From the NCBI GenBank assembly GCA_023663655.1, contig JAMPGZ010000009.1:1-41775 (forward strand): 41,775 nt of DNA, read 5' to 3'. A program made the translations under genes and the position numbers. Positions 20,971-32,869 of this stretch are shown here, in pieces. This stretch comes from Lachnospiraceae bacterium (GTDB lineage: Bacteria; Bacteroidota; Bacteroidia; Bacteroidales; Muribaculaceae). Position 1 is the first letter of the stretch, and every line of letters starts with the position of its first letter. The notes beneath the pieces are model-generated. The model was not told the DNA's origin. It ran no database searches and worked only from the letters and a program-made list of their open reading frames with translations.

Positions 20971-21224
20971 AAGAGAAAGGCGAGAGAGCCTTTCAGAAGG
21001 AATAACCACATCAAAGTTGATTGGGAAACTCATCAAATTTTAATGAAATACCGAGACAAGCTTAGTCGCCCAATGGCGGGCCCCACCTCCCCGGAGGCTA
21101 CCTCTTCAGGTACAAGGCGGATTACAAAGGACGGCGAGCACTCAAATCCTGTCATTCGGAGTTTCATCGCATCCTTTGGTGTGGCACTATAGTCAAGCAA
21201 GCGTCAGCTTGCTTGACTTTTTTT
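20971..21224 (+). ncRNA. Candidate structured small RNA (~250 nt), divergent from susC
   Basis: A complete promoter and a perfect intrinsic terminator define a transcript of about 250 nt. Hairpins along it are GAAAGGC/GCCTTTC (20975-20994), CGCC-CAAT-GGCG (21067-21078), CCTCC/GGAGG (21086-21097) and TACCT-CTTC-AGGTA (21099-21112). The GC-rich middle stands out against the AT-rich surroundings. I do not recognise it as tmRNA, RNase P RNA, SRP RNA or 6S RNA: the ends do not pair and the hallmark motifs are absent. A 49-codon frame (21043-21192, MKYRDKLSRPMAG... ending GVAL) runs through it and stops at the base of the terminator, so a small-protein mRNA is the main alternative. Divergent orientation from susC fits the pattern of PUL-associated sRNAs in Bacteroides, but a regulatory link is inference. 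Confidence 0.5.
21191..21224 (+). terminator. Strong intrinsic terminator of the candidate RNA
   Basis: AGTCAAGCAAG (21191-21201) and CTTGCTTGACT (21208-21218) form a perfect 11-bp stem with a 6-base loop and are followed by a run of T to 21224. Confidence 0.9.
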
Positions 21225-23270: not shown

Positions 23271-24011
23271 TTACTTGTTGATGAATTTCTTGCCGTTTTT
23301 GATGACGATACCCTTGTAGTTTTCGTCAACCTGTACGCCCTGAAGGTTGTACATAGGAGCGTTTTCATCTTCAGCAACGATTACGTTTTCAATACCGGCG
23401 GGTTCTCCCTTTTCATATTCAACCAAGATTGCAACGAAGGGCTGTTCACCGGAGTTGGTGATTGAAACATTAGATGCCTTTGCAATAGTAAACTCGTAAG
23501 CATCAGGGTTCTCGAAATCTTTGTAAGATGTTGCGATTTTGCCTGTTTCAGCGGTGAATTCGTGTTCGTTGACCTTCTTCCAGAATGCGGGACGATCTGT
23601 AGCAGCATCTTTGTTGATGACTGTGTAGAGGGTTACTTTAGTTGCTACAAATCCTTCAGGAAGAGTGACAACGTGTTCTGCCCCGTTAGAAAATTTCATT
23701 GGGATAATCTTTGCATCAGGAGTGGTGATGGTGTTGCCTGATTCAATGTTTTTCGCTGTATTCATACATTGAACTTTCCAGCCAGCCATTGCTTCAACTT
23801 CCTTGTTGTAAGCTTCAACTGCTGCTTCATAGGCAGCTTGGTCTTCTTCTGTAGCTTCAGCTCCCGGTTTTGCAGGTGTCTTAACAAAATCTTTTCCTTC
23901 AAGAATGTTCTGCTTTACCTTGTTGGGGTTGCCGAGAAGGACGGTTTCTGCATTGGCATTAAATGAGGTAAACATGGCTAATGCAGCCACTAATAGAGTA
24001 AATTTACGCAT
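23271..24011 (-). CDS. Secreted protein with conserved Bacteroidales C-terminal tail
   Basis: A 246-aa exported protein from the ATG at 24011. A longer frame from 24047 starts inside the promoter and is rejected. Signal peptide MRKFTLLVAALAMFTSFNANA. The middle (residues ~25-200) contains an acidic KTPAKPGAEATEEDQAAYEAAVEAYNKEVEAM segment and beta-rich sequence with no recognised domain. The last ~40 residues (GIENVIVAEDENAPMYNLQGVQVDENYKGIVIKNGKKFINK) are the short tail seen at the end of many Bacteroidales/Prevotella secreted proteins and resemble a type-IX-like sorting tail. The promoter spacer consists of an (AT)10 tract, so expression may be phase variable. The function is unknown. Confidence 0.75.
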   Translation of the reverse strand: MRKFTLLVAALAMFTSFNANAETVLLGNPNKVKQNILEGKDFVKTPAKPGAEATEEDQAAYEAAVEAYNKEVEAMAGWKVQCMNTAKNIESGNTITTPDAKIIPMKFSNGAEHVVTLPEGFVATKVTLYTVINKDAATDRPAFWKKVNEHEFTAETGKIATSYKDFENPDAYEFTIAKASNVSITNSGEQPFVAILVEYEKGEPAGIENVIVAEDENAPMYNLQGVQVDENYKGIVIKNGKKFINK

Positions 24012-24044
24012 AAAAAATAAATTTAGGTTAAACATAATGTGGTG

Positions 24045-24074
24045 CAAAGATATATATATATATATATATTACAA
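24045..24074 (-). promoter_or_regulatory. Promoter with a TA-repeat spacer
   Basis: On the minus strand TTG (24074-24072), a 19-base spacer and TATCTTTG (24052-24045). Seventeen of the nineteen spacer bases belong to the AT repeat. Leader about 30 bases to the ATG at 24011. Confidence 0.6.
24050..24069. repeat. (AT)10 dinucleotide tract
   Basis: Ten AT units run from 24050 to 24069 and occupy the space between the -33 and -7 elements of the secreted-protein promoter. Slippage by one unit would alter the spacer by 2 bp. Confidence 0.95.
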
Positions 24075-24104
24075 GCGTTTTAGCTATTATTAACAAATAA
24101 AAAT

Positions 24105-24138
24105 AAGAGGGCGGTTCTGTATATTGAACCGTCCCCTT
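24105..24138 (-). terminator. Terminator after PFOR
   Basis: AAGAGGGCGGTTC (24105-24117) and GAACCGTCCCCTT (24126-24138) pair, with one G-T and one weak position, around an 8-base loop. The minus-strand tail is TATTTTTATTTG. Confidence 0.8.
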
Positions 24139-30547: not shown

Positions 30548-32869
30548 ATGCTTAAACAAATTTTTTATGCATGGAGGTCGGTGATACATACTCCCCGACA
30601 ATCTTTGATTAAAGTGGTGAGCCTTAGCTTTGGCATAGGCATCGCCATATTGTTGTTCGCTTGCGTGGCTTACTTTAAAAGTTATGACACCTGCTATCGT
30701 GACAGCGACCGGCTGTATCAATTGTGGATGACTTGGGTGCTGGGGGACAAGGTTATACCTCCGTCAACTACAATCATAGGCAAACTTGGCGAAGGTGTCT
30801 ATGAGGAGATGCCCGATGTGGTGGAGAGCGTAGCAACAATGCGTCCGGTCAGGGATGTAAAGGTTGGCAAGGATGGCAAATTCCTGACAATGAGAGGCAC
30901 GGTAGCCGATTCTTTGTTTTTTGAGACAATGGGTGTTGAGGTGTTAAGTGGAAATCCCCGCATTGATCTTCAGCGCAAGGACGTGGCGTTTATCTCGGAT
31001 AAAATCGCCGACACTTATTATGGCGGCACTGACCCTATAGGCAAGGAGTTGGTTTACGACAGTGATTTCCGGGTGAGGATAGCAGGGATTTTCAAGACTA
31101 TACCTGAAAATTCAAGCGTCAATCCCGATATTGTGGTGTCATTGCCCACATGGCTGTCGCAAGGTTGGGTATATTCCTGGCACGGAGGTGACAGTTGGAA
31201 AGGCTATGTGAGGATCAAGGAAGGTGTTGATATATCCTATGAAGAATTTGACCGAAGGATAGATGAAATAATCCAGCGCCATGCTCCCGACAAAGATGGA
31301 AACGGCATACGCGGTCATGCCAGGCTCATGAGAGAGACTTTCCAGAATGCTGAAGGCAACCGCAGCATGGTGATTCTTTTGGGGATGCTTGCCATGGGAT
31401 TGCTCATTATCACCGCTCTGAATTATGTGCTCGTGTCGATTGCGTCGCTCAGCCGTCGTGCCAAGGCGGTGGGGGTGCATAAATGCAGCGGAGCGCAGAG
31501 CAGTGACGTGTTGCGTATGTTTGTCTACGAGACTATGATTGTGGTCGCAGGGGCGCTCATATTGATAGTTCTGCTCATCATGCAGTTTCATGAGTTTATA
31601 GAGGCTACGCTTAAAACTCCTATCGCCAGCCTGTTTGCTCCTGAACGTCTTTATGTTGCAGTGGCGGTGGTAGCGGCTGTGTTTGCCATAGGAGCCTTTG
31701 TGCCTGGCATAATCATGTCGCGTATCTCGGTTGCTACCGTATTTCGCCGATTTACCGAAAACCGCAACCGGTGGAAGCGTGTGTTGCTGTTTGTGCAGTT
31801 TGCCGGAGTTTCCTTTATCGTGGGCTTTCTGGGTGTAGTATGGGCGCAATACAGTTATATGGTTAATAAGGATGTGGGATATGATGACAGCGGTCTTGTG
31901 CTGGCTCCTTATCAGAACGATTACGACCTGGATGTCTATATGGCAACACTTGCGAGTATGCCTTATGTGGAGGGTTGCGTCATTTCCGGATCTACGCCGG
32001 TGTACTCCTACAGCGGCAGCATGGTTAGGGACAATATGGGACGGAGTTTGTTCTCATCCCGATTTGATTGCATCGATAAAAACTATTTTGACTTCATGGG
32101 ATTTAAATTGCTCGCAGGAAGCAAAAAGATTGAAGGGAAGTCGGAGATGATAGTGAATCGTGAGTTTTGCAAGCTGATGGGCTGGAGCGTGGACGACGCA
32201 GTGGGGAAAATAGTTCCTTCATCCATAATGGACAATGTGAAGGTGGTAGGAGTCATGGAAGATGTGAATATCGACTCATTCTTTTCTGAACCGATGCCGT
32301 TGATGCTCTACTCTGCCGAGGCGTGGGTGAATAATGCCAGTCTTGTGACATTGAGGTTGAAGGCGCCGTATGAAGAGAATTTCACAAAGTTGAATGCTGA
32401 TTTTTCCCAGATGTTTCCTAATTCGGCTAATGAGCCTAAGTCGGTGGCAGAGATAAAGCTTCACAAATATGCTGATGTAGGCATCATGAGGAATATCGCG
32501 CTTATCGCTTGCGTGTCGATATTGTTCATTGCTTTCATGGGGCTGGTGGGGTACGTCGCCGACGAGATCCAGCGCCGCAGTAAAGAGATTGCCATACGCA
32601 AGGTGAATGGTGCCGGAGTGGGTGCAATCGTGATGATGCTGATTTCAGGAATGGTGAAGATTGCGTTGCCGGCTGTCGTCATAGGCGGTGTCGCGGCATG
32701 GTGGACGGGATCATTGTTCATGAAGCTGTTTCCGGTATCGGCTGGCGGTGAGTGGATGATTTATGTTGCCACTTCGCTTGCGATAATGGCTATAATCATC
32801 GTGGCGGTGATATTGATGACGTGGAGAGCGGCGAATGCGAAACCGACAGAAAATTTGAGAAACGAATAA
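30548..32869 (+). CDS. FtsX/MacB-like ABC transporter permease
   Basis: A 773-aa inner-membrane protein with two MacB/FtsX repeats. The first membrane span (residues ~20-42, VVSLSFGIGIAILLFACVAYF) is followed by a large periplasmic MacB-type core (~45-275), then three spans (from MVILLGMLAMGLLIITALNYVLV), a second span set after residue ~420 (VLLFVQFAGVSFIVGFLGVVWA), a second periplasmic core and three C-terminal spans (IALIACVSILFIAFMGLVGYV onward). EIQRRSKEIAIRKVNGA is the hallmark FtsX coupling motif. Such proteins drive periplasmic or outer-membrane processes or efflux rather than nutrient import. It is co-transcribed with the ATPase from a sigma-54 promoter and is probably controlled by the divergent kinase/regulator. 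Confidence 0.92.
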   Translation: MLKQIFYAWRSVIHTPRQSLIKVVSLSFGIGIAILLFACVAYFKSYDTCYRDSDRLYQLWMTWVLGDKVIPPSTTIIGKLGEGVYEEMPDVVESVATMRPVRDVKVGKDGKFLTMRGTVADSLFFETMGVEVLSGNPRIDLQRKDVAFISDKIADTYYGGTDPIGKELVYDSDFRVRIAGIFKTIPENSSVNPDIVVSLPTWLSQGWVYSWHGGDSWKGYVRIKEGVDISYEEFDRRIDEIIQRHAPDKDGNGIRGHARLMRETFQNAEGNRSMVILLGMLAMGLLIITALNYVLVSIASLSRRAKAVGVHKCSGAQSSDVLRMFVYETMIVVAGALILIVLLIMQFHEFIEATLKTPIASLFAPERLYVAVAVVAAVFAIGAFVPGIIMSRISVATVFRRFTENRNRWKRVLLFVQFAGVSFIVGFLGVVWAQYSYMVNKDVGYDDSGLVLAPYQNDYDLDVYMATLASMPYVEGCVISGSTPVYSYSGSMVRDNMGRSLFSSRFDCIDKNYFDFMGFKLLAGSKKIEGKSEMIVNREFCKLMGWSVDDAVGKIVPSSIMDNVKVVGVMEDVNIDSFFSEPMPLMLYSAEAWVNNASLVTLRLKAPYEENFTKLNADFSQMFPNSANEPKSVAEIKLHKYADVGIMRNIALIACVSILFIAFMGLVGYVADEIQRRSKEIAIRKVNGAGVGAIVMMLISGMVKIALPAVVIGGVAAWWTGSLFMKLFPVSAGGEWMIYVATSLAIMAIIIVAVILMTWRAANAKPTENLRNE

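Follow-up and report, generated by a model that had tools for sequence, protein, structure and literature searches.

A run of ten AT units that occupies most of the promoter spacer of a gene for an exported protein is probably a slipped-strand phase-variation switch acting through promoter spacing. The run lies in a 41,775-nt stretch of DNA (positions 1 to 41,775 of contig JAMPGZ010000009.1; hereafter, the window). We favor this reading because the tract is the only one of its kind in its genome, promoter boxes of this genome prefer particular spacings, copies of the promoter differ in tract length, and the arrangement recurs in related genomes. In the proposed mechanism, polymerase slippage would add or remove AT units, and each gain or loss would alter the distance between the -33 and -7 elements presented to the primary sigma factor of Bacteroidota. 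The present 19-nt spacer would fall within the working range and correspond to an ON state, and a change of one unit, to 21 or 17 nt, would lower transcription of the exported protein. A surface location of the protein and a benefit from switching it are presumed. The relevant features are as follows.

24075..24094, minus strand: conserved upstream block GTTAATAATAGCTAAAACGC of the promoter module (alignment of copies)
24072..24074, minus strand: -33 element TTG (CTTG) (sequence; spacing statistics)
24050..24069, minus strand: (AT)10 tract, promoter spacer (sequence, genome-wide count, shuffles)
24045..24052, minus strand: -7 element TATCTTTG (TANNTTTGY with the following C) (sequence, consensus, spacing statistics)
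24012..24044, minus strand: conserved leader from the -7 box to the ATG (alignment of copies)
23271..24011, minus strand: gene of the exported 246-aa protein P0001, with no Pfam or NCBIfam match
23949..24011, minus strand: signal-peptide coding stretch, its first part conserved in DNA along with the promoter (cleavage site placed by eye)
23274..23396, minus strand: conserved C-terminal segment (GIENV...NAPMYNLQGVQVDENYKGIVIKNGKKFINK) common to family members (sequence comparison)
24109..24134, no strand assigned: terminator-like hairpin in the gap between the upstream gene and the promoter (hairpin search)

The initial annotation had reported the (AT)10 tract at 24050-24069, between a TTG and a -7 element with a 19-nt spacer made mostly of repeat, and both points were recovered from the sequence: 17 of the 19 spacer nucleotides come from the repeat, and the last 3 nt of the tract lie inside the -7 box. 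This tract is the sole one with at least 8 AT units in the 2,898,291-base genome. Counting AT runs from 8 nt upward, a 426,185-base sample of the same genome has nine of 8 nt, five of 9 nt and one of 20 nt, and (AT)10 appears in none of 100 dinucleotide shuffles of the window. TATCTTTGC is a perfect match to TANNTTTGY, the -7 consensus of Bacteroides (PMC12632263), and both boxes of the window agree with the -7 and -33 consensus sequences in the accessible text of two publications (PMC12632263, PMC7366714). With TANNTTTGY at -7 and TTG/TTTG near -33, the pair has the makeup predicted for a promoter of the Bacteroidota primary sigma factor. As at loci of the hif, vmm and vlp type, a repeat of slip-prone length lies between both promoter boxes. 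It is very unlikely that the arrangement arose by chance.

The most likely start codon of P0001 is the ATG at 24011, the sole candidate start common to all ten aligned copies of the gene start. An in-frame ATG at 24035 is absent as a shared start among these copies, and a TTG start at 24047, a mechanical choice, was set aside in favor of the shared ATG. The N-terminus of the protein, MRKFTLLVAALAMFTSFNANA-E, was judged by eye to be a signal peptide. P0001 has no Pfam or NCBIfam match at E values up to 10, and P0001 and eight relatives have no Pfam match above the curated cut-off. The genome encodes an SprA-type protein of the type IX secretion system (SprA_N match, 622 bits). As to P0001 being cargo of this system with a type A C-terminal domain, no profile of a known sorting domain matches; the C-terminal segment of the family resembles a sorting domain by eye but not by profile. 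Terminator-like hairpins are found on both strands upstream of the P0001 gene (24112-24131 on the minus strand) and part it from the upstream gene, which is nifJ/PFOR-like in sequence; the P0001 gene should therefore have its own promoter. Elsewhere in the window, Bacteroidales-1 RNA (Rfam RF01693, a suggested 6S RNA) is matched at 21004-21192 on the plus strand with 124.8 bits.

Box spacing was analyzed in 176 upstream regions from 426 kb of the window's genome, the window included. Among 82 TANNTTTGY sites, TTG occurs at a spacer of 20 nt in 18 and of 19 nt in 8 (binomial tail for 18 occurrences at 20 nt, 5e-11), against a mean of 2.5 (range 0-6) for the 21 other distances between 10 and 32 nt. 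Spacers of 17, 18 and 21 nt are seen 0, 2 and 3 times. The variant TA..TTCGY occurs three times in the same 176 regions, never with a TTG at 10-32 nt. The peaks at 20 and 19 nt place the 19-nt state in the working range, which a change of one unit would leave. The window's spacer thus appears to sit near the optimum and to be off it after a single unit, as at hif-, vmm- and vlp-type loci, and the earlier expectation that a shift to 21 or 17 nt should matter gains support from this preference.

Sequence comparison makes the window's promoter a member of a multi-copy module common to a gene family. Copies of the promoter and signal-peptide block were collected by searching 14 genomes of the genus at the DNA level and by running a sequence-only model, R1, over 397 genomes of the taxonomic family. 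Strong R1 copies (E <1e-20) are confined to four species of the window's genus. Ten copies of the block are full: G006, G007 and G008 contribute three apiece and the window's genome the remaining one. An eleventh, in G008, is truncated at a contig end (E 3.6e-5). Another 23 genomes gave weak R1 matches (E 1e-4 to 0.01) that were taken as noise; those in G291, G135 and G244 fall at AT tracts. Pattern searches of viral contigs and plasmids returned no further copy of the window's promoter and no strain variants. AT runs in the block copies measure 20, 26, 20, 30, 29, 29 and at least 32 nt, and four copies have no long run. The sister-species copies that carry the repeat hold it in the promoter spacer too, and the initial annotation's placement of the tract in such a spacer is supported.

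Gene-family promoters that lack an AT run and whose box pair is readable all have a spacer of 19-20 nt, seven of seven (20 in six; three of the seven belong to family genes without the block), whereas the spacers of the six measured repeat promoters, the cut G008 copy left out, are 19, 18, 24, 28, 28 and 26 nt, one in range. The difference gives a Fisher p of 0.005 with orthologous pairs counted twice and 0.048 with each pair counted once. The -7 box in this count could read TTTG, TTCG or TTAG, and the TTG at 20 nt was taken where several were in range, which favors the no-run group in G000:C20 and G007:C3. Promoters cut by contig ends went unmeasured (G006:C32, G006:C232, G007:C22, G007:C23, G008:C15 and the start of G008:C10), and G006:C188 and G007:C14 have no box pair. 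Isolate-110 was excluded from the count: by eye its TTG and TAAATTTG lie 20 nt apart, and the scripts return no pair or another pair. All five other measured repeat promoters carry TATCTTCG or TATATTCG at -7 in place of TTTG, which counts against the switch reading. One promoter and signal-peptide block would drive several dispersed genes in sister species, and with the five other measured repeat copies outside the working range the family may be switched gene by gene. The block also contains a conserved AT-rich upstream element, GTTAATAAAAG.TAAAA, as might be expected if the tract were a site where a regulator binds or melts DNA and the -33/-7 reading a coincidence. We consider this highly improbable: the block copies that have no long run hold TTG and a -7 box 20 nt apart, and the match to a -7 box at the tract end lies far above the null expectation given below.

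Differences in tract length were observed from species to species and within one pair of closely related genomes; with one genome compared per species, the window's species itself yielded no length variant. G006:C90 is the same locus as that of the window, behind the nifJ orthologue (84% over 878 aa between the two genomes, 83% over the last 330), and has an AT run of 26 nt against 20 nt. Its mature protein is truncated at a contig end, and the match to P0001 is limited to 34 residues surrounding the signal peptide. G007:C39 and G008:C20 align over 7,059 columns at 99.7% identity with 21 substitutions, and their single indel, of 2 nt, falls at the 3' edge of the tract. We give this indel limited weight, because it removes CT/TC at the tract edge and not a clean AT unit, lies close to contig ends, and has counterparts elsewhere: two other G007/G008 locus pairs, at 99.0 and 98.2% identity, show five gap openings apiece, so indels between these genomes are not confined to AT tracts. 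AT tracts are themselves cut by contig ends in G008:C10, G079:C54, G076:C5 and G082:C14, which could reflect mixed lengths or hard assembly. Length differences between species and paralogues would also be seen if tract length worked as a graded control of promoter strength, or of DNA flexibility, on an evolutionary time scale and a single culture switched little. That alternative is improbable in our estimate, since the sharp spacing preference predicts large effects, and ten units lie within the (TA)9-11 range of the switching hif locus of Haemophilus influenzae (PMC2651432).

The arrangement recurs in the taxonomic family. The pattern (TA)8NNTTTG is present in 9 of 397 family genomes, the window's included, and its reversed control in one. 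Seven of the nine sites precede an exported protein or lipoprotein as judged by eye, one of them with the ATG only 4 nt past the -7 box. A wider survey found 45 AT runs of at least 18 nt, or 90 strand-tracts; this is not the full number of runs, as the pattern passes over tracts with T first and A last (e.g. G334). In 17 of the 90, a TTG ends 0-6 nt upstream of the run and the run closes with TA..TT[TC]G. A null in which flanks were swapped gives 0.64 such tracts on average over 1000 draws and, where the flanks are intergenic, 0.71 over 2000; the maximum is 4 in each. Counting each module once leaves 6 of 66 against 0.52, and none of 2000 draws reaches 6. In an order-wide sample of 393 genomes, 387 of them outside the family, the 7-unit pattern was found in four genomes besides the window's, and outside the family the AT-spacer design shows no enrichment, with 4 matches and as many in the control. 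The strict design thus seems specific to the window's family, probably Muribaculaceae.

The main rival to a switch is neutral growth of the repeat: AT-rich spacers ending in the TA of a -7 box would seed runs that slippage lengthens, with no selected switching, in genes that tolerate weak expression. Spacers of this promoter class are described as AT-rich in the available part of one study (PMC7366714), 28 of the 45 long AT runs lie in no such spacer whichever strand is read (contig ends truncate four of the 28), and the strict design is as rare as the nine genomes above indicate. Against neutral growth stand the excess over the flank-swap null even with intergenic flanks, the conservation of flanks and open reading frames while lengths vary, and the presence of several tract promoters within single genomes (G006, G008 and G053). 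A further point comes from a second family gene of the window's genome, G000:C40 (L025, near 80-82 kb), where a run of G9, counted with the G of the TTG, lies within the 20-nt spacer of a TTG-TACATTTGT box pair 91 nt before the ATG; an AT-rich spacer would not seed G9. The run is also present in L207, on the minus strand. G/C runs of at least 8 nt number four (8-9 nt) in 426 kb of this genome, G9 included, and runs of 7 nt number none. One of the three others lies 61 nt before a lipoprotein-like gene. On balance, we regard neutral growth as unlikely, though it is the explanation to be taken most seriously after the spacing switch.

Promoter repeats that switch genes are already known outside Bacteroidales. 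The (TA)9-11 repeat of hif in H. influenzae, whose changes in length are proposed to alter the -10/-35 spacing (PMC2651432), resembles the window's tract in that about ten TA/AT dinucleotides are repeated in the promoter region of a gene for a surface structure. By contrast, hifA and hifB form a divergent pair with -10/-35 boxes, and in the window a single gene has -33/-7 boxes of the Bacteroidota type and belongs to a module dispersed over several genes. In vmm of Mycoplasma mycoides, dinucleotide indels in a promoter-spacer repeat accompany switching of a surface protein (PMC10502178), but this system consists of one variable surface protein in a mollicute and not of a family with shared ends. 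Closer in taxonomy are the invertible promoters of Bacteroides, which make surface molecules phase-variable within the same order (PMC12632263); these work by recombinase-driven DNA inversion, whereas slippage would need no recombinase. The initial annotation had remarked that phase variation in Bacteroidales is usually described as inversion, and the accessible text of two 2025 reviews names inversion or invertases for Bacteroides (PMC12632263, PMC11868660); the words 'slippage' and 'slipped' are absent from the accessible text of one of them. Among papers retrieved from an incomplete coverage of journals, none reports a promoter-repeat switch in Bacteroidales in its title or the opening lines of its abstract. 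An on/off switch by slippage would therefore be of a kind not usually reported in the order, and would offer gut commensals a second, recombinase-free route to heterogeneity. Such a switch would be invisible to searches for invertons, but could be read from counts of AT units in metagenome reads.

Members of the gene family have in common a C-terminal segment of about 45 residues and differ in their middle parts; some also have the promoter and signal-peptide DNA in common. The middles differ between two species at the nifJ locus, and two members of G008 with different middles are alike in 94% of 189 nt at the 3' end. The differing middles look like the outcome of recombination at shared ends. 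G006:C235 and G008:C15/G007:C22 were considered as one metK site with exchanged middles and rejected: the family gene lies between metK and an ABC-F-like gene in G006 and beyond the ABC-F-like gene in G007 and G008, which makes them different sites. Family genes are cut by contig ends in G006, G007 and G008 (L104, L105, L106, L089, L090), as expected if shared ends confuse assembly. Constant ends with differing middles would make surface variation in Bacteroidales directly testable. Tentatively, the family may undergo antigenic variation of the Vlp kind, with dispersed exported proteins whose middles are exchanged and whose copies are switched independently by spacer repeats, (AT)n and in one case G9; a second AT-spacer module might act likewise for small secreted proteins. 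The vlp genes of Mycoplasma hyorhinis are clustered and share a signal-peptide region. They differ in carrying a poly-A tract, as opposed to the AT repeat and dispersed genes of the window's family; the likeness is that each of several surface-protein genes has a slippage tract of its own in its promoter region (PMC10502178).

This second module, TTTGG-(AT)n-TCGCACA, accounts for 7 of the 17 spacer tracts. Loci at which the module was noted are as follows.

Second-module loci: L138, L142-L145, L123, L147, L171, L176-L181, L185-L188, L190, L194

A model built from eight of its copies, R2, matches 8 of 337 family genomes in four genera at E values up to 1e-5, and the module is also present in G357, of a fifth genus. 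Twelve of the 14 R2 places examined have AT runs of 13-26 nt, 9 of the 12 preceding a secreted protein or lipoprotein as judged by eye, and two are without a box pair. One of seven spacers measures 19-20 nt, the preferred values being those of the window's genome and not of these genomes. A pattern for the module has a match in one viral contig (L169). Its longer form, GGACTAATTGGG...AAACAT...TTTGG-(AT)n-TCGCACAATTTTTAAC, is conserved in DNA across genera before different, mostly small proteins. Separately, L125 has two AT runs of 26 and 27 nt (1502-1527 and 1775-1801; about 31150-31450 of G042:C22), some 250 nt apart. Both follow a similar TTTAACGTAA....TTG stretch, and one is near a signal-peptide gene on the other strand; the pair is not a plain spacer case.
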